64,000 nt of DNA, taken from contig NZ_CP119075.1 in assembly GCF_029023725.1 (NCBI RefSeq), positions 243,501 to 307,500 of the forward strand, read 5' to 3'. Under the pieces are notes generated by a model. The model was not told where the DNA came from. It did not search any database and saw only the letters and a program-made list of their open reading frames with translations. Position numbers and translations under genes: made by a program. The DNA comes from Synoicihabitans lomoniglobus. GTDB lineage: Bacteria > Verrucomicrobiota > Verrucomicrobiia > Opitutales > Opitutaceae. This document shows positions 8,400-16,985 of this stretch, piece by piece; within the stretch, counting starts at the first letter, position 1; every line of letters starts with the position of its first letter.

Positions 8400-9953
8400 A
8401 TGTATTCAAAGTCCGCTCTCCTCGTCGGTCTGGGTCTCGCCCTTGCCGGCCCGACCCTTGCGCAAACCCCGCTCACCGAACGCACCGCTTTGGAGCGGGC
8501 GCTGGTCGCCAATTTCGACCTGCAAGTCGAAGCCCTCGCCCCGCAGGTAGTCGCGGCCGAGATCATGATGGAAGAAGCCGCGTTTCTTCCGGCCATTTTT
8601 GCCGAAGGCAGCTACGACGATAATCGTAAGTCTCAGAACTCGATAGATTTCGCGGCTTTGCAGCAGCGTATTTTTGAGGAGGAAAACACCGTGATGCGCG
8701 GTGGTGTAGGCGGTCGACTGCCGTGGGGCACGACCTACGAACTCTCGCTCCAGCTGCGGGAACTCGACAACAGCGTCAATCGCGCCGGTTTGCCCAATGC
8801 GCTCTATTCCCCGGAGTATGATGCCTTTGCCGGCATTACCCTGCGCCAACCCTTGCTCAAGGGATTCGGTCGGGCAGCCAACCTCGTCGATCTGCGCGTG
8901 GCCCGGGCTCAGCTGCTGATTACCGAACGCACCCGCGAAATTGCGGTGAACAACAAGTGCGTCGAGGTGCTCAACGCTTTCTACGATTTGGCCTACGCCG
9001 AATCCAACGTGGACGTGAAGACCTCCGCCGTGAGCGTGGCCGACCGGTTCCTGGCCGAGACCGACCGTCGTCGCGAGCTGGGGCTGCTGAGCCCCGTGGA
9101 TGTATCCGAAGCGCGAGTGCGCGTGTCCGAAGCGAATGAGGAATTGATTCAGGCGCGCGACTTTCTTCGCGAGCGTCAGCTGGAAATGGTGCGCCTGCTG
9201 TCCCTGCCGACTGGAGCCGACGGCCGCACCGCGCAGCCGATGGTGTCAGCCCGGCTGCTCGATGCAGCACCGGTCCACACGATCGCGGAATTCTTTCCCG
9301 CGGCGCTCGAACAACGGCCGGATTATCAACTCGCGCTCAAGCGCGTGGCGAAGGAAGGCATGCGAAAATCGGCGGCGAGTAACGAGCGCCTGCCTCAGCT
9401 CGATCTGCGTTTCTCCTACGGGCTCTACGGGCTGTCGGGCGATTATCAGAGTGCAATCGACACGGCCTACCGGGCCGACGAGCCGCAGTGGGGTGCCGGG
9501 GTGAGCATCACGGTGCCGCTCAGCCTGCGGGATGGTCGGGCCAAGATGCAGGCCGCCTCGCTGCGGGTCCGGCAAGCGGAGCTCCGCGTCGAGCAGTTGC
9601 GTCAACGCATCGCACTCGAGGTCGAAAACGCCGTGCGCCGACTCGAAGTGCTGGAGCAACGGCTCGCCACGGCGCGCAGCTCCGTGTCCTACGCGACAGA
9701 CGGTTTGAATCTGGAAGAGGCCCGGTTGGAAAATGGCCAAACCTCGGGATTTGCCGTATCGGAATTGCAACGACGTTTGGCTGATGCCCGCACCCGCGAA
9801 CTGGCGGCCCGCGTCGATCTGACCAAGGCCGTCACGGAACTTTATTCGGTCAGCGGCCGGTTACTCCCGCACCACGGCATCGAGGTCGCGCACACCGAGA
9901 CCGAGCGAAAGGGCTTCAATGTCTTCGCGCCCTTTGACCTCATGATGAAATGA
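8400..9953 (+). CDS. TolC-family outer-membrane efflux/secretion protein
   Basis: The product has 517 residues. A signal peptide is visible (MYSKSALLVGLGLALAGPTLA, cleavage before Gln at about residue 22). The body has two OEP-like halves of long amphipathic helices rich in A, E, R and Q (about 150-260 and 370-480), with the outer-membrane strand motif L-R-Q-P-L-L-K-G-F-G near residue 152. TolC proteins form a trimeric channel and periplasmic tunnel. The ATG at 8400 is preferred because it gives the intact signal peptide. The gene is the first of a same-strand set; its TGA overlaps the next ATG as ATGA, which suggests translational coupling. It probably supplies the outer-membrane exit for the adjacent adaptors and possibly the giant protein. 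Confidence 0.9.
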   Translation: MYSKSALLVGLGLALAGPTLAQTPLTERTALERALVANFDLQVEALAPQVVAAEIMMEEAAFLPAIFAEGSYDDNRKSQNSIDFAALQQRIFEEENTVMRGGVGGRLPWGTTYELSLQLRELDNSVNRAGLPNALYSPEYDAFAGITLRQPLLKGFGRAANLVDLRVARAQLLITERTREIAVNNKCVEVLNAFYDLAYAESNVDVKTSAVSVADRFLAETDRRRELGLLSPVDVSEARVRVSEANEELIQARDFLRERQLEMVRLLSLPTGADGRTAQPMVSARLLDAAPVHTIAEFFPAALEQRPDYQLALKRVAKEGMRKSAASNERLPQLDLRFSYGLYGLSGDYQSAIDTAYRADEPQWGAGVSITVPLSLRDGRAKMQAASLRVRQAELRVEQLRQRIALEVENAVRRLEVLEQRLATARSSVSYATDGLNLEEARLENGQTSGFAVSELQRRLADARTRELAARVDLTKAVTELYSVSGRLLPHHGIEVAHTETERKGFNVFAPFDLMMK

Positions 9954-10816
9954 CGCGGCCCATCGCTATGATTTTACCGAAGGCAACCAGCCGGGCGCCT
10001 TCATTTTCACAGGAGGAAACAGAGGTGAGCAGAGCCACGCCGCGGCACTCCAGGCTGACGGCTTTGTTGCCCTTCGTGACCTTCTGTAAAAAGACCAGCG
10101 TGCTGTGGACCCTCATGATCGGGGCGACGGTGGCGACAGCCGCATCGATCGAGGTCGTGTTGGAACCAGTGCACGCCATGGTCGTCAGTGCGCCCGAGGA
10201 CGGCGTGTTGGCTGCGATCGCCGTGGATGAAGGGGATGCGGTCCTGGCCGGGGCGACTCTGGTCGAGTTCGAACGCGCGCAGGAAGAGCTGCGCGTCGAG
10301 CGGGCACGAGAGGTATTGCGCAAGCGCGAGTTCGACTACGCCGGCGTGGAAAAACTGTTTCAGGACGACATGACCAGCGAGACCGAGAAGTTGGAAAAGG
10401 AGATCGAACGCCGCGTGGCCGAGATTGATCTGGCCGACGCCATCGAGCAGCGCGACCGCCGCGTGGTGAAGGCGGTGCACGCCGGCACGATCACGCGTCG
10501 TCATCACGAAGCCGGCGAATACGTGGAGCGCGGCACGCCGTTGTTGGAGTTGGTGGATCAGCGGCAACTCGATGCCCGGTTCTACGTGCGCCCGGCGGAA
10601 GGCATCACTTTGACCAAGGGGGATGCGGTGTGGGTTCGCGTGCCCTTGATGGAGGCGACGGTGCGTTGCCGCGTGGTTTTTGTCGATCCGACGGTCGATC
10701 CGTCGAGCGGCCTGATGCGTGTGCGCGCCCGGGTCGAAAATGACAACGGACGTTTCAAACCCGGCCTGCGTGGCTGGGTTAATCTGGCGAAGGAGGAGCC
10801 GGTCACGTGGCCCTGA
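9950..10816 (+). CDS. HlyD/RND-type periplasmic adaptor
   Basis: The product has 288 residues. After residue about 60 it shows the typical adaptor order: half-lipoyl strand (VVSAPEDGVL), a helical hairpin around residues 100-150, the second lipoyl half with R-R-H-H-E-A-G-E-Y, then a beta-barrel and the SSGLMRVRAR motif. The start is uncertain. ATG 9950 overlaps the TolC stop as ATGA, but residues 6-48 are translated from an inverted-repeat element. Within that element AGGAGG at 10011-10016 sits eight bases before an in-frame GTG at 10025, a very good alternative start. ATG 10116 would leave almost only the hydrophobic segment. The protein is probably membrane-anchored or exported by the segment near residues 48-66. 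Confidence 0.82.
   Translation: MTRPIAMILPKATSRAPSFSQEETEVSRATPRHSRLTALLPFVTFCKKTSVLWTLMIGATVATAASIEVVLEPVHAMVVSAPEDGVLAAIAVDEGDAVLAGATLVEFERAQEELRVERAREVLRKREFDYAGVEKLFQDDMTSETEKLEKEIERRVAEIDLADAIEQRDRRVVKAVHAGTITRRHHEAGEYVERGTPLLELVDQRQLDARFYVRPAEGITLTKGDAVWVRVPLMEATVRCRVVFVDPTVDPSSGLMRVRARVENDNGRFKPGLRGWVNLAKEEPVTWP
9971..10092. repeat. Dispersed inverted-repeat element, copy 1 (inside a CDS start)
   Basis: Bases 9971-10040 match the reverse complement of the right half of the element at 12651-12818, sharing AACCAGCCGGGC and ACAGGAGGAAACAGAGGTG. Bases 10052-10092 match that element's right half in direct orientation (GCTGACGGCT, then CTGTAAAAA). The element overlaps the N-terminal codons of the adaptor gene and supplies an AGGAGG/GTG start context. 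Confidence 0.75.
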
Positions 10817-12633
10817 AACCACGCGACGTGGCGGAATGGCTTTCCGCTGACGCCGCGGCGGATGAACCGACGTTTTGGCGGGAGTGGTTGCGCCAGGCTC
10901 GACCCGTCCTCGGGGCGAGCTGCGCGCTTATTATCCAACCGGCGACCAACGGTCAGGCTCAGCGCACGCTGTTGCGCGCCGGGGAACAGACCCGGGACCT
11001 GCCCGAAGGATTGATCGCGGCGGCGCTCGGCGAGCAGCCGTTGCAATTGCGACCGCATGAGATCGGTGGCGGCACGTTTGCGGTGCGGGTGCCCTGGGAT
11101 CAGGCCAGTCCGACGGCGGTCGTCGTGGTGGGCGAAATCACGGCGAAGACGTGGGGCGCGGACGGACCGGATGAGGCGTGGCGCGACCGGGCGCTGTTGT
11201 GGGCCAACATCGCGAGCCGACGGCGCACCAACCGGGAAGCCGACCTCACCCGGCGGCGGGCCGACGAGCTGGCGCACGCGTTGGAACTCGCCGTGTTGTT
11301 ACGGGCCCATGACGGTTTCAAGGGAGCGGCGTTGGAGCTATGCAATCAGTTGGCCGATCGCCACGGTGCCGATCGCGTCGTGCTGGGCTGGTGGCGCGAG
11401 CCGTATGTGCGGGTTGAGGCCGTGAGCCAGATGAATCAAATCGAGCCGCACATGGCGGCGGTCGGGGCGGTGGAGGCGGCCTTGGAGGAAGCCGTGGAGC
11501 AGGACGCCACGATTCTATGGTCGGCGGCGGAGCGCACGGAGGCGGAGGAGTTGCCCAAGATCACGGCGCAACACGCGGCCCTGGCTCGCGAACAAGGTTG
11601 GACCGGGCTGTGCACGATGCCGTTGCGCAGTGGCTCCCGGATCGTCGGGGCCGTAACGTGGCAGCGGCAGGACCGTGGATTTACCGCTGACGAAGCGATG
11701 GGCTTTGCACTCGTCCTGGACGGGGTCGCCCCGTGGCTGGAGCAAAAAGAGCGCGCAAAAGGGTGGTGGGGGCGTCGACTCAAACGCAGCGTTGAGGAGA
11801 CCGCGCGACGCCATTGGAACCTGCAACACCCCTGGCCGAAACTGGCGGCGGTGCTGGTTGCGGTGCTGCTGGTCACGTCTTTGCTTGTGCGGGTGCCCTA
11901 CCGGGTCGAGGCGGAGTTTTCCCTGCGGCCCGTGCGGCAGATGGTGTTCAGCGCGCCGTTCGATGGCTTTGTGGAAAGTATGATGGTCGCGCCCGGTGAC
12001 GCGATCGAACCGGGCACACCGTTGTTTGCCTTGGACAGCACCGCATTGCGCTTGGAAGAGGCGGAGCTGCTGGCGGATTTGAGTCGGTTTTTGCGCGAAC
12101 GCGAACAAGCCGAAGCCAAACGCGACCTGGCCGCGATGCGGGTCGCCGAAGCGCAACGCGATCAGATTCAGGCGCGATTGCAGCGACTGCGGCGACAGAT
12201 CAGTCAAGCCACCGCGACCACGCCGTTTGCTGGTATCGTGTTGGATGATGGCAACCTGAGTGAGCGGCTCGGTGCGCCGGTGCGGCAGGGCGACGCGTTG
12301 TTGCGTTATGCGCAGCTCGACGGCCTGTTTTTTGAGTTGTCCGTGCCGGAAGCCGATGCGCCGTTGATTGCGGTCGGCACGCGGGTCGAGATCGCGTTTC
12401 GCAGCCGACCGGACGAAGTCGTGGTGGCCGAGGTTTCCCGCATCGAGCCGGAAGCGGTGGTCGGAGCAACCGGTGCGGTCTTCATGGTGCGGGCGGTTCC
12501 GGAGGTGACGGCGGCCGACTGGTGGCGTCCGGGTATGACTGGTATCGGGAAACTGATTACGGAGAAACGCAGCCTGCTGGATATTTTCACCCGCCGACTG
12601 ATCGACTGGCTGCGCCTGCAGCTCTGGTGGTGA
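10807..12633 (+). CDS. GAF-like / transmembrane / HlyD fusion adaptor
   Basis: The product has 608 residues. Residues about 150-330 resemble a GAF sensor domain (C-N-Q-L-A-D-R-H-G-A-D then L-C-T-M-P-L-R-S-G). One membrane helix lies near 345-361. Beyond it come a lipoyl-like half (V-F-S-A-P-F-D-G-F-V-E-S), a coiled coil of E/R/Q-rich helices (about 415-470), the second lipoyl half and an adaptor barrel. The topology is therefore a cytoplasmic sensor joined to a periplasmic adaptor. The gene starts with GTG at 10807, overlapping the previous stop by 10 bp. HlyD proteins normally have a short cytoplasmic tail, so about 340 cytoplasmic residues is unusual. It may couple a small-molecule or protein signal to assembly (inference). 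Confidence 0.8.
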   Translation: MALKPRDVAEWLSADAAADEPTFWREWLRQARPVLGASCALIIQPATNGQAQRTLLRAGEQTRDLPEGLIAAALGEQPLQLRPHEIGGGTFAVRVPWDQASPTAVVVVGEITAKTWGADGPDEAWRDRALLWANIASRRRTNREADLTRRRADELAHALELAVLLRAHDGFKGAALELCNQLADRHGADRVVLGWWREPYVRVEAVSQMNQIEPHMAAVGAVEAALEEAVEQDATILWSAAERTEAEELPKITAQHAALAREQGWTGLCTMPLRSGSRIVGAVTWQRQDRGFTADEAMGFALVLDGVAPWLEQKERAKGWWGRRLKRSVEETARRHWNLQHPWPKLAAVLVAVLLVTSLLVRVPYRVEAEFSLRPVRQMVFSAPFDGFVESMMVAPGDAIEPGTPLFALDSTALRLEEAELLADLSRFLREREQAEAKRDLAAMRVAEAQRDQIQARLQRLRRQISQATATTPFAGIVLDDGNLSERLGAPVRQGDALLRYAQLDGLFFELSVPEADAPLIAVGTRVEIAFRSRPDEVVVAEVSRIEPEAVVGATGAVFMVRAVPEVTAADWWRPGMTGIGKLITEKRSLLDIFTRRLIDWLRLQLWW

Positions 12634-12650: not shown

Positions 12651-12818
12651 AGTTTCACCGAAGGCAACGAAGAGAACGAAGCCACTCCGATGATGATTCT
12701 TTTACAGGAGGAAACAGAGGTAAACGGAGCCACTCCTCCGACCACCAAGCTGACGGCTCTGTTCACCTCTGTTTCCTCCTGTAAAAACAAAGGAGCCCGG
12801 CTGGTTTCCTTGGGTGAG
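12651..12818. repeat. Dispersed inverted-repeat element, copy 2 (intergenic)
   Basis: This fills most of the 214-bp gap. Inner arms of 30 bases (12701-12730 and 12757-12786) are complementary at 28 of 30 positions around a 26-base loop; the arm core is ACAGGAGGAAACAGAGGT. The outer flanks (TTCACCGAAGGCAAC on the left, the complement of CTCACCCAAGGAAAC on the right) extend the pairing. No ORF of its own is seen. It is MITE- or REP-like, and its transcript would form a long hairpin between two genes of the operon. Confidence 0.8.
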
Positions 12819-12847: not shown

Positions 12848-15004
12848 ATGGCTGGTGCGGCCGGATTGTTGAGTGATCGGTGGCACCTCGTGGCGGGATT
12901 GCGCGTGACGTTGCGGCCGGATTGCGTGGTGCGTCGGCAGACGTTTCGGGGCGAGACCTGGCAGGTGATTTCCGATCCGTATTCCAATCGGCACTACCGG
13001 GTGCGGCCGGAGGCGTGGCAGTTTTTGGCTCGTCTGAACCGGCGGCGCACGGTGGACGAGTCGTGGCGGGAGATGGTCGATCACAGTCCGGCGAGTGCAC
13101 CGGGACAGCGGGAAGTGATCGAAGTGCTCACCCAGCTGCACGGGGCGAATCTGCTGTTGGCCGATGCGGCGCCCGAGACGTGGTCCATGGTCGATCGCCG
13201 GCAACGCGAGCAGCGTCGGCAGGCGCGACAGCAGTGGATGAATTTTCTGTTTTTGCGAATTCCGTTGTTTGACCCGGATTTCATCCTGGAGCGGTTGAAA
13301 CCCATTGGCCGTCTGCTGCTCAGTCCGTTGGGCGTGGTGCTTTGGGTGGTCGTGCTCAGTCTGGGCGGCAAGGCGGTCATTGATCATTGGACCGAGTTTC
13401 GGGAGCAGTCCCAGGGGGTGTTGGCACCGGCGAACCTGGTTTGGCTCTACCTCGTGTGGTCGATGGTGAAGGTCGCGCACGAATTCGGCCACGGTATGAT
13501 GACGAAACGGTTTGGCGGCGAAGTGCGTTCGTGCGGCGTGATGTTGCTGGTGTTCACCCCCGTGCCGTTTGTCGATGCGAGTGCGGCGTGGGCGTTTCGC
13601 GCGCGGTGGCAGCGGCTGCTGGTGGGCGCGGGCGGCATGATTTTCGAACTCTTCATCGCCGCGATAGCCGCGATGGTTTGGGCGCAGAGCGACGGGGAGG
13701 GCACGGTGGCGCGGGTCGCTTACAACGTGGTGTTTCTGGCGTCGGTTTCGACGCTGTTGTTCAACGCCAATCCGTTGCTGCGGTTCGATGGTTACTACAT
13801 TTTGGCCGATTGGGTGGGCGTGCCGAATTTGCAGCGTCAGGCGTCGCAGCAATGGAACCGGTGGTTCGAGCGATGGGGGTTGGGTTTGGATGGACCGTCG
13901 CCCCTCGCGCGAACCCGTGCCGGGGCGGCAGGGTTGGGAGCCTTCGGGGCGGCGTGTGCGGGGTATCGCGTGTTTGTATTGTTGGTGATCTGCGCGTTCA
14001 TCGCCGGACAACTCTTCGAAGTCGGATTCGTTTTTGCACTGGTGGGTCTGGTGCTGTGGCTGGGCGGTCCCCTGCTGAAGTTCTTCAACTATCTGCTGTC
14101 GGCTCCGCGCACTCAGCGAGCGAGGAAGCGCGCGGTGGGCTGGGCGATCGCGTTGCCCGTCGTGGTCCTGGGTATCCTGAGTTTCGTGCCGATGCCACAT
14201 GCCGTGCGGGCGCCCGGCGTGGTGACCGGGGCGCGGGTGAGTGAAGTGCATGCGGATGTGAGTGGGCGACTCGATGCGTTGCTCGTGGCCTCCGGTGAAT
14301 ACGTGGAGACCGGTGCGGTGCTGGTCACATTGCGGAACCCGGAGTTGACCGATCTGCGCGAGGAACTGGAAGCGGTGCAGCGGGAAGTTATGGCCCGGCG
14401 GGCGCTGGCGTGGGATCGTATGCCCGCCGTGCTCGAACCACTGGACCAGCGACTGCGCAGCATCGAGGCCCAGTTGCGGGAGATTGATCAGCAACTCGCC
14501 GCGCTGGCGGTGCGCGCCCCGCAGTCGGGACGTTGGTCGGCTCCTGGCATGGAGTGGCGAGTCGGTTCGCACGTGCCGCGAGGCACGCTGCTCGGGCGCG
14601 TGAGTTCCCGCGATGACATGGTGTTTGATGCCGTGGTGGCGCAGCGGGATGTCGATCGCCTCACGCGTAGTCAAACGCAGCAAGCGGAGCTGCGATTGCG
14701 AGGCGCGGCGGATACAGTGATCGAAACCGGTCCGGGTGAACTGCGACCGGCCGAAAGCCGACGACTGCCCTCGGCCGCGCTGGGTTGGCGGGCCGGCGGC
14801 ACGGTGAGAATCGATCCCGACGACCCGGACGGACTGCTCGCGGCCGAACCTTTTTTCCGATTGCGGGTCGCGCTTCCCGCCGACGCCAACACGGAGCTGC
14901 TCATGCGCACGGGCGTGCTCCGAGTGGGACTCGATTGGCAACCGTGGGGTGTGCAGGGGTGGCGAAGACTGCGGCAGTTTGTGCAGGAGCGTTATGGCCG
15001 GTGA
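12848..15004 (+). CDS. PqqD-like / M50 metalloprotease / HlyD fusion membrane protein
   Basis: The product has 718 residues. Residues about 15-110 resemble a PqqD-type peptide-binding domain (VTLRPDCVV, then a winged-helix pattern). Membrane helices follow. The zinc motif HEFGH is at residues 211-215, with the second site-2-protease motif N-P-L-L-R-F-D-G-Y-Y (Asp near 314). After residue about 450 come a lipoyl-like half, a helical hairpin and an adaptor barrel. Family knowledge: M50 proteases cleave within or near membranes; proteins with an M50 core plus HlyD domain accompany secretion loci. The ATG at 12848 is chosen because GGGGAGGG at 12832-12839 is well spaced. The TTG at 12830 is less likely. 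It overlaps the next gene by 11 bp. Confidence 0.83.
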   Translation: MAGAAGLLSDRWHLVAGLRVTLRPDCVVRRQTFRGETWQVISDPYSNRHYRVRPEAWQFLARLNRRRTVDESWREMVDHSPASAPGQREVIEVLTQLHGANLLLADAAPETWSMVDRRQREQRRQARQQWMNFLFLRIPLFDPDFILERLKPIGRLLLSPLGVVLWVVVLSLGGKAVIDHWTEFREQSQGVLAPANLVWLYLVWSMVKVAHEFGHGMMTKRFGGEVRSCGVMLLVFTPVPFVDASAAWAFRARWQRLLVGAGGMIFELFIAAIAAMVWAQSDGEGTVARVAYNVVFLASVSTLLFNANPLLRFDGYYILADWVGVPNLQRQASQQWNRWFERWGLGLDGPSPLARTRAGAAGLGAFGAACAGYRVFVLLVICAFIAGQLFEVGFVFALVGLVLWLGGPLLKFFNYLLSAPRTQRARKRAVGWAIALPVVVLGILSFVPMPHAVRAPGVVTGARVSEVHADVSGRLDALLVASGEYVETGAVLVTLRNPELTDLREELEAVQREVMARRALAWDRMPAVLEPLDQRLRSIEAQLREIDQQLAALAVRAPQSGRWSAPGMEWRVGSHVPRGTLLGRVSSRDDMVFDAVVAQRDVDRLTRSQTQQAELRLRGAADTVIETGPGELRPAESRRLPSAALGWRAGGTVRIDPDDPDGLLAAEPFFRLRVALPADANTELLMRTGVLRVGLDWQPWGVQGWRRLRQFVQERYGR

Positions 15005-16985
15005 GTTTCAACTACCCCGACTGCGGCCGTCGCGACCGGTGCCAAAAGGACTGGAGGCCGGACTGGAGTATGTCGCGGGTTGGTGGATACGACGACGGGC
15101 CCAGCGCATTGATCTGGTCGGCGAGGCGGCGAAGATTGGCGAGCGGATCGACACCTTCGAAGGCCGGCGCAACGAGCACCTGGCGGATGCCCTGCGTCAG
15201 GCGCGGGCGGAGTGGAGTCTGGGCCGCACGCGAACACCGGAAGCCCGGCAACGGGCGCTGGCCGTGGTGGGCGCGGTGGCATCGCGCGAGCTGGGTTTAA
15301 TCCCGCATCGCGAGCAGATCATGGGCGCGCTGGGGTTGGAGCGCGGGTGGTTGATCGAGATGGCGACGGGTGAGGGCAAGACCCTCACGTTGGCAATGGC
15401 CGCGGTGCTGGCGGCCTGGCGGGGGCACGCGTGTCATATTCTGACGGCCAATGACTATCTGGCCGGTCGAGATGCGCGGGCGCTGTTTCGTTTTTACGAC
15501 CGCTGCGGAGTCGCGGTGGCGGCGGTGACGGGAGAGCATTCCCCGGTCGAGCGACGAGCGCGCTATCAAGCGGGAGTGGTTTACACGACGAGTCGCGAGA
15601 TCGTGGGTGATTTTCTCCGCGATCGACTGCGATTGGGACGCCGGGTTTCGACGGAACAATGGCGACCGTGGGTGAAGCGGCGCGGCGGAGAGCACCCGGT
15701 GGTGGTGTTGCCGCGACTACACACGATGTTGGTCGATGAGGCGGACCAGGTGTTGATCGATGAAGCCGTCACGCCGTTGATTTTGAGTGCCCAGCGCGAG
15801 AACGACCAATTGGCGACGTTGTGCAGAGAGGCGCTGGCGGAAGCGCGCGAACTGGTGAAAGGCGGGGACTTCACGATCAATGTGGCGCGGCGGGAAACCC
15901 GGATCGATCAAACCGTGACGGTCGGAAGGGCGGCCGAAGGTCGCCACGCGTTGCTGCGGGTGCCGCGGTGGCGCGAGGAGTGGTTGGGCAAGGCCTTGCT
16001 GGCGTTGGAGACGTATGTGGCAGGCAAGCACTACGTGGTGCAGGAAAACAAGATCGTGTTGATCGACGAATCGACCGGACGCTCGATGCCTGATCGCAAT
16101 CTCGGGGAGGGCATGCATGCATTGCTCGAAGCCAAGGAAGGCGTGCCGGTGTCGGCTCCCACCGAGACCATGGCGAGTCTCAGTTTTCAGCGTTTCTTTC
16201 GCCAGATCCCGCGGCTCGCGGGGGTTACGGGCACTGCCATGGATGCAGCGGCGGAGTTCTGGCGACTGTATCGCTTGGCCGTGGTCACGATTCCCACGCA
16301 CCGCCCGGTCAACCGCCGCGTGATGGCGGAGCGGGGCTTCGGGAGTGAGGCGGAGAAATGGCGCTTTGTGGCCGCCACCGCGCGGAACTGTCGGGAGCGC
16401 GGGCAGGCCGTGCTCATCGGCACCCGCACGGTGGCGGCCAGTGAAGCCGTCGCGGATGAGATGCGCGCCGCTGGCGTGCCGTTTACGCTGCTCAATGCGG
16501 TGCGTAATGCTGACGAAGCCAGTATTGTGGCGGCGGCCGGTAGCACCGGGCAGATCACCATTGCCACCAACATGGCGGGGCGGGGCACCGACATTGTGCC
16601 CAGTGATGATGTGCTGGCAGTCGGAGGCCTGCGGGTGATCGCCACCGAACGACATGGGTCGCAGCGAGTGGATCGTCAGTTGTTCGGACGTTGCGCTCGC
16701 CAAGGGCAGCCGGGGATCGTGGAGCCGTTGGCCAGCTGGGATGACGAAGTGTTGCGTCACCACTTGCCGACTTGGTGGCAGCGGTGGGGCACGCGGTGGG
16801 CGGGCAACGGATGGGCGCTCCGTTTGAGTTTGCGCGTGGCCCAGTGGCGGGCCGGGCGGCGCGATGTCTCACGCCGGGTAGGCGTGTTGCGGCACGACCA
16901 GTGGCTCGATCAGAACCTCAGCATGGGAGCTCCGTCCCAGGGCGGAGCGAAACCGAAACCCGGTGGACGGGTGGTTCCGGCGTAG
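14994..16985 (+). CDS. SecA-like ATPase lacking the SecA C-terminal domains
   Basis: The product has 663 residues, against about 900 for housekeeping SecA. Present: Walker A TGEGKT with Lys129, the LTANDYLAGRD motif, Walker B VDEAD near 247-251, a shortened preprotein-binding region, V-T-G-T-A, I-A-T-N-M-A-G-R-G-T-D-I near 522-533, and an arginine-finger-like segment R-C-A-R-Q-G-Q-P-G near 567. Absent: the long helical scaffold and wing domains and the Cys-rich zinc C-terminus; only about 90 residues follow the second motor domain. ATG 14994 has AGGAG at 14985-14989 and overlaps the M50 gene by 11 bp. ATP-driven polypeptide movement for the neighbouring adaptors is the natural inference. It is not the housekeeping secA. 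Confidence 0.87.
   Translation: MAGEFQLPRLRPSRPVPKGLEAGLEYVAGWWIRRRAQRIDLVGEAAKIGERIDTFEGRRNEHLADALRQARAEWSLGRTRTPEARQRALAVVGAVASRELGLIPHREQIMGALGLERGWLIEMATGEGKTLTLAMAAVLAAWRGHACHILTANDYLAGRDARALFRFYDRCGVAVAAVTGEHSPVERRARYQAGVVYTTSREIVGDFLRDRLRLGRRVSTEQWRPWVKRRGGEHPVVVLPRLHTMLVDEADQVLIDEAVTPLILSAQRENDQLATLCREALAEARELVKGGDFTINVARRETRIDQTVTVGRAAEGRHALLRVPRWREEWLGKALLALETYVAGKHYVVQENKIVLIDESTGRSMPDRNLGEGMHALLEAKEGVPVSAPTETMASLSFQRFFRQIPRLAGVTGTAMDAAAEFWRLYRLAVVTIPTHRPVNRRVMAERGFGSEAEKWRFVAATARNCRERGQAVLIGTRTVAASEAVADEMRAAGVPFTLLNAVRNADEASIVAAAGSTGQITIATNMAGRGTDIVPSDDVLAVGGLRVIATERHGSQRVDRQLFGRCARQGQPGIVEPLASWDDEVLRHHLPTWWQRWGTRWAGNGWALRLSLRVAQWRAGRRDVSRRVGVLRHDQWLDQNLSMGAPSQGGAKPKPGGRVVPA

Follow-up and report, generated by a model that had tools for sequence, protein, structure and literature searches.

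The window analysed here, a 64,000-nucleotide stretch of the Synoicihabitans lomoniglobus genome (G000; 5.93 Mb, single contig), carries an operon in which genes for an outer-membrane efflux protein (TolC-like, OEP), an adaptor, an HlyD-like and an M50-like protein are followed by a SecA-like gene. On the forward strand, the OEP gene lies at 8400..9953 (Pfam PF02321, E 1.7e-43), the HlyD-type periplasmic adaptor gene at 9950..10816 (HlyD_3, 8.1e-18; HlyD_D23, 1.8e-16), the second HlyD-like gene at 10807..12633 (GAF match below cut-off) and at 12848..15004 a gene for a membrane protein that has HlyD segments and a sub-cut-off M50 match, while the SecA-like gene, as an ORF, spans 14949-16985. 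Direct reading confirmed the ATGA overlap described in the initial annotation, in which the OEP stop codon TGA (9951-9953) is overlapped by the adaptor ATG at 9950. The adaptor is an open frame with a predicted repeat-encoded N-terminus, followed by a hydrophobic segment of host-gene sequence with a likely signal-peptidase site (TSVLWTLMIGATVATA-A) at 10094..10144 on the forward strand; we take the predicted cleavage to follow the (-3,-1) rule.

The inverted-repeat element reported within the adaptor frame is real, and its arms can be read directly at 9972-10092 on the forward strand. An eroded outer left arm of the GA type (9972-9988, TTTTACCGAAGGCAACC) was placed by direct reading and alignment with an orthologue (G020, see below), and is followed by an inner left half-element of the GG type (10004-10036, TTTTCACAGGAGG...GAGCC) and by a right arm of the GA type (10053-10092, GGCTGAC...CCTTCTGTAAAAA), which codes up to FCKK and has the same junction in G020. 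The element is composite, with an outer GA pair enclosing the left half of a GG arm, rather than one clean inverted repeat; a repeat search of the window (seed 7, minimum 12) found no inverted pair in it. As had been proposed, some 40 codons come from the element, which lies in the open frame, and AGGAGG at 10011-10016 stands eight bases 5' of an in-frame GTG (10025-10027). Counted in the frame from 9950, this GTG is codon 26; no stop interrupts that frame. The Lys-Lys of FCKK, with codons from TTCTGTAAAAAG, directly precedes the hydrophobic segment. At the RNA level the element folds into a long stem, modestly above chance (z -2.13; 4 of 200 shuffles as good). An intrinsic terminator was dismissed on reading rather than by a scan, as the right end (CUGUAAAA) has no U run.

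A relative of this element does exist at 12651-12818 (forward strand), as the initial annotation had stated, between the second HlyD-like and the M50-like genes; its inner arms (12700-12731 and 12755-12786) are 94% complementary. This second copy is predicted to be untranslated and is probably not part of a protein, since the ATG of the M50-like gene (12848), behind GGGGAGGG, comes after the repeat. G020 has an unrelated palindrome (GGCCACAAAAAGGCAC...) at the same junction. Read on the reverse strand of the G020 locus L076, this palindrome lies at about 4040-3930, before the M50-like gene, as GGCCACAAAAAGGCACAAAAA...TTTTTCGTGCCTTTTTGTGGCC, where the window has its GA/GG copy.

Both elements belong to a dispersed family. 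Searched with a 171-bp query, the genome of the window had 27 matches, the query's own place among them (best other match E 1e-15), and an arm pattern matched 97 places in the genome compared with one for the backwards control. Within the window, the GA pattern had nine matches (2.2 expected; reached in none of 100 shuffles), three of them in the two elements, and the GG pattern had four (0.8 expected; reached in one of 100 shuffles), all in the two elements. We collected 114 arms in 58 clusters from 42 stretches fetched around pattern or DNA matches, as opposed to a whole-genome scan for weak arms. The arms face mostly inward, also in most multi-arm clusters, and several clusters are nested as GG-GA-GA-GG; the exceptions include an outward-facing cluster at 1308287 and clusters with arms in one direction only at 2090038, 5673416 and 5679435. 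The family thus has the terminal inverted repeats of a MITE and is a palindromic dispersed repeat in the manner of the Rickettsia palindromic elements (RPE). The arm pattern was also found in 12 of the 18 other genomes searched from the same bacterial family, including six of the seven from the genus; outside the genus, arm counts are low and in places equal to the control (one against one in G118).

The label 'mobile-like' in the initial annotation is fair for the family; for the adaptor element itself, limited tests of its arms gave neither a target duplication nor a transposase. Target-site duplications were not evident by eye at the few arm flanks inspected. No GA or GG arm (up to two mismatches) lay within about 1.5 kb on either side of the 18 Y1_Tnp loci, and a RAYT-mobilised REP was rejected on this basis, no RAYT gene flanked by the repeat having been seen. 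A very uniform, MITE-like sub-family of 190 bp (14 copies, two of them shorter) has a GA arm near its ends (CCGAGATTCCGCAGTT and CCTAATTAACGCAGTT), and 5-bp target duplications flank eight of its ten measurable copies. These copies lie in G000 at 322172, 940217, 1222474, 1512806, 1872214, 2337683, 2908578, 3494764, 3531578, 4225793, 4486718, 4768942, 4949032 and 5529364, six of them among the loci L081, L085, L088, L089, L099 and L100. Each end pattern had 14 matches; paired, they give copies of 146-190 bp, and a larger partner was not found with them. The 190-bp element may be the source, or the captor, of the GA repeats. A further repeat type, ATCTGTGTT..ATCTGTGG or CCACAGAT..CACAGAT, occurs at L006, L009, L010 and L027 and has, by eye, a 9-10-base rhythm resembling the GA and GG arms; the two types are possibly one larger class of periodic palindromes.

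The closest view of the adaptor N-terminus comes from G020, a genome of the same genus in which the adaptor is 71% identical and the outer arms lie at the same codon; the search that yielded it had homologue loci fetched for its best 30 places only. From the ATG beside the left arm the G020 frame reads MDFFSPKETKASRATP...FLTFVSFCKKSLLLAGIGIAAGAVAA, and from ATG 9968 the window frame reads MILPKATSRAPSF...LLPFVTFCKKTSVLWTLMIGATVATA. In both species the right junction is the same and Lys-Lys is followed by 18 residues up to Ile-Glu. The inner parts differ between the species, with both frames open; by eye, G020 has half of another repeat in the place of the GG half, and AGGAGG is missing there. 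A second frame of the G020 element is likewise open. Upstream of the repeat, G020 offers GTG and ATG starts, and a GTGA overlaps the OEP stop (by reading). After the left-arm ATG, the next ATG, GTG or TTG in G020 is a TTG that lies past the repeat-encoded Lys-Lys (CTG codons were left out of this check). Without an internal start, translation through the repeat is the simplest reading in G020. The insertion probably predates the split of the two species, and among the N-termini that we read theirs are the only two genomes with this arrangement.

Other homologues have shorter lead-ins. We mapped 76 other distinct homologue N-termini, taken from 123 loci wherever a match at E 1e-6 lay close to the start of the query, leaving out the window genome and dropping identical upstream sequences and frames that ran off the locus end; starts were chosen by a simple rule, and repeats were not scanned for homologue by homologue. 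An ATG lies 15-50 codons before the conserved Glu in 71 of the 76, the exceptions being G020, G116, L152, L124 and L066; the window ATGs lie 61 and 67 codons before it. By a crude rule, 62 of the 76 have Lys or Arg before the hydrophobic part, and some of the rows without (L071-L075) look like wrongly chosen internal ATGs. Homologues from repeat-less species that shared the same 40 residues would have spoken against a repeat origin, and none was found: a tblastn search with the 46 repeat-encoded residues against the 123 loci of other genomes gave nothing below E 0.22, and no mapped N-terminus except the repeat copies resembles them. The nearest short hit, LPFVSFCKK in L215, coincides in part with a repeat-arm copy in G064. 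The same search missed G020 itself, which has the repeat DNA and the FCKK end in common with the window but not the peptide as a whole; the peptide is poorly conserved and gives no sign of selection. A contig search with the adaptor alone matched 65 stretches, none of them a relative.

A parallel is found in G116, from another genus of the same family, where an 80-bp palindrome (L061/L208; G116:C13 44324-44403; GGTGGAGCGCGTTGACC...GGTCAACGCGCTCCACC) stands in frame between the ATG and the hydrophobic segment. A search of the G116 genome with it gave 78 matching segments, counting the query itself and with most places appearing on both strands, and by eye it is unrelated to the window repeat. 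The adaptors of G126, G127 and G129, 72-73% identical to that of G116, have a short ordinary lead-in without the palindrome. The G116 frame also has a TTG inside the palindrome, behind AGGTGGAG, as an alternative start candidate.

An open frame by itself proves little, since 30 of the 102 frames in 17 other two-arm elements of the genome are open as well; in 12 copies of the 190-bp sub-family none of 72 frames is. Across the 58 clusters in 42 stretches, the adaptor is the one case seen in which an intact two-arm element stands within the first part of an ORF that scores as coding and has no suitable start codon beyond the element, so in-frame copies are not a large share of the family. The coding calls were heuristic and combined inspection by eye with codon usage learned from 23 ORFs of the window.

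The repeat most likely supplies about forty N-terminal residues of the adaptor, including the positively charged lead-in of its export signal. The proposal of the initial annotation that the repeat had become an N-terminus is thus supported by the G020 arms at the same codon and the lack of an internal start there. We regard as probable, with some reserve, a scenario in which the 5' end of the adaptor gene received a dispersed palindromic repeat and translation of the gene now begins at an ATG shortly before the repeat, at 9968 or at 9950 overlapping the OEP stop, and proceeds through it. The ATG at 9968..9970 (forward strand), as the counterpart of the left-arm ATG of G020, would be the favoured start, with 9950 as the alternative. 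About 40 repeat residues would then form an extended, poorly conserved cytoplasmic n-region, whose last codons (FCKK) would give positive charges before the inherited hydrophobic signal segment. The 16 bases ahead of each ATG contain no ribosome-binding site, which suggests coupling to the OEP gene. We infer translation, the exact start, the coupling and export of the repeat N-terminus from sequence; the case for a repeat-encoded N-terminus is built on the lack of other starts in G020, on the junction common to both species and on what a signal peptide requires.

The other candidate starts can be weighed against the same evidence. The initial annotation had also offered the AGGAGG and GTG as a new translation start, in which case ribosomes would bind at AGGAGG and initiation at GTG 10025 would shorten the repeat-encoded N-terminus. 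The spacing of eight bases is ideal, the product would retain charges ahead of its hydrophobic segment, the next gene (10807) likewise probably starts at a GTG preceded by GGAGG, and ribosomes arriving from 9950 or 9968 could open the hairpin. However, in five folded windows AGGAGG comes out paired to the right arm, with an unpaired probability of 0.001, and it is absent from G020; it is constant in the GG arm type, and among 32 AGGAGG arms a GTG follows eight bases later in three, this one included, and an ATG in none. We therefore rejected GTG 10025 as the main start and hold this reading to be improbable, although it may serve as a secondary start. A 16S 3'-end pattern, used as an anti-Shine-Dalgarno check, gave no matches, so our reading of ribosome-binding sites draws on general knowledge. 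A start within the right arm, at TTG 10064, TTG 10067 or GTG 10076, would keep Lys-Lys and give a short repeat-encoded lead-in (for example MTFCKK) whose length and charge are like those of the ordinary signal peptides of homologues; with no ribosome-binding site in front of these codons and none of them present in G020, we rate it as very improbable. Scarcely better placed is the idea that the repeat is an untranslated leader, an mRNA hairpin between genes, with the start beyond it at GTG 10100 or ATG 10115. The poorly conserved peptide and the small number of clusters, out of 58, placed in an open frame whose flanks score as coding are consistent with it, but these starts have no AGGAGG-like site and no Lys or Arg before the hydrophobic segment, and G020 offers only a TTG there, also uncharged.

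A question that is compatible with any of these starts is whether the two species acquired the element separately, at a junction that attracts palindromes. The unrelated palindromes at the second operon junction in the window species and G020, and the entry of an unrelated palindrome into this gene stretch in G116, lend this some weight; the identical right junction and spacing to the mature part, and the outer arms common to both species, speak against it, and we consider two independent insertions unlikely. A more speculative extension of translation through the repeat, to which we give similarly little credence, is that the n-region is a permissive landing place, entered in frame by unrelated palindromes at least twice in the family, that the insertion in the lineage of the window species replaced the original start, and that adaptor translation has come to depend on OEP ribosomes opening a hairpin that conceals a strong internal ribosome-binding site, which would make a coupling device from the repeat.

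By analogy, events of this kind are already on record in Rickettsia, Coxiella and Yersinia, and the adaptor case itself would be new. According to the portions of the literature available to us, nearly half of the RPE lie in ORFs (Ogata et al. 2000, 2002, as reviewed in PMC10969869 and PMC2229807). Like these, the window repeat is a short palindrome of about 100-150 bp in frame within a conserved gene, with open frames in both the window and G020 that would be translated; unlike them, as far as those accounts go, it is in frame in one of 58 arm clusters, plus a single-arm case (L103), and sequences and hosts differ. In Yersinia, a YPAL/RU-2 element is described as part of the YPO1552 signal peptide (Delihas 2007, PMC2229807), so there too a mobile-type repeat gives part of an export signal; in that excerpted account the product is a putative new exported protein of 144 residues, whereas here a conserved adaptor has kept its inherited hydrophobic part and only the charged lead-in would come from the repeat. 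The Coxiella QMITE, as partly consulted (PMC5896051), form in-frame fusions that add MITE-derived residues within an ORF or at its 3' end, and they are another repeat family. Finally, Opitutus terrae is rich in GTAG repeats of the GTAG/CGTC REPs (PMC3733652), which, from the sections seen, are likewise dispersed palindromes in a verrucomicrobial host, some inside genes; in contrast, the window arms are longer and composite, with no prominent GTAG in their consensus and no arm within about 1.5 kb of the 18 Y1 loci. No description of the GA/GG arm family was found in the literature searched, judged mostly from listings, which leaves its absence unproven.

The adaptor thus presents a case in which traceable mobile-type DNA would have become the start of a conserved envelope protein; an orthologue has the same arrangement, and another genus has, in the same stretch, an unrelated palindrome that its close relatives are without. 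It suggests a reason for the survival of such insertions, namely that beyond charge little is required of an export lead-in. The case also cautions that AGGAGG inside repeats can mimic a start signal. The single-arm case, in L103 at about 1500-1975 (genome 3343172-3343643), has two inward GG arms, 453 bases apart, around a GxxExxY gene (TIGR04256, E 9e-36; PDDEXK_3, E 5e-33). Its single left GG arm lies in the open frame of that gene, with two start candidates, a GTG ahead of the arm and a TTG directly behind it, and judged by its layout the locus resembles a packaged gene with a repeat end on either side.
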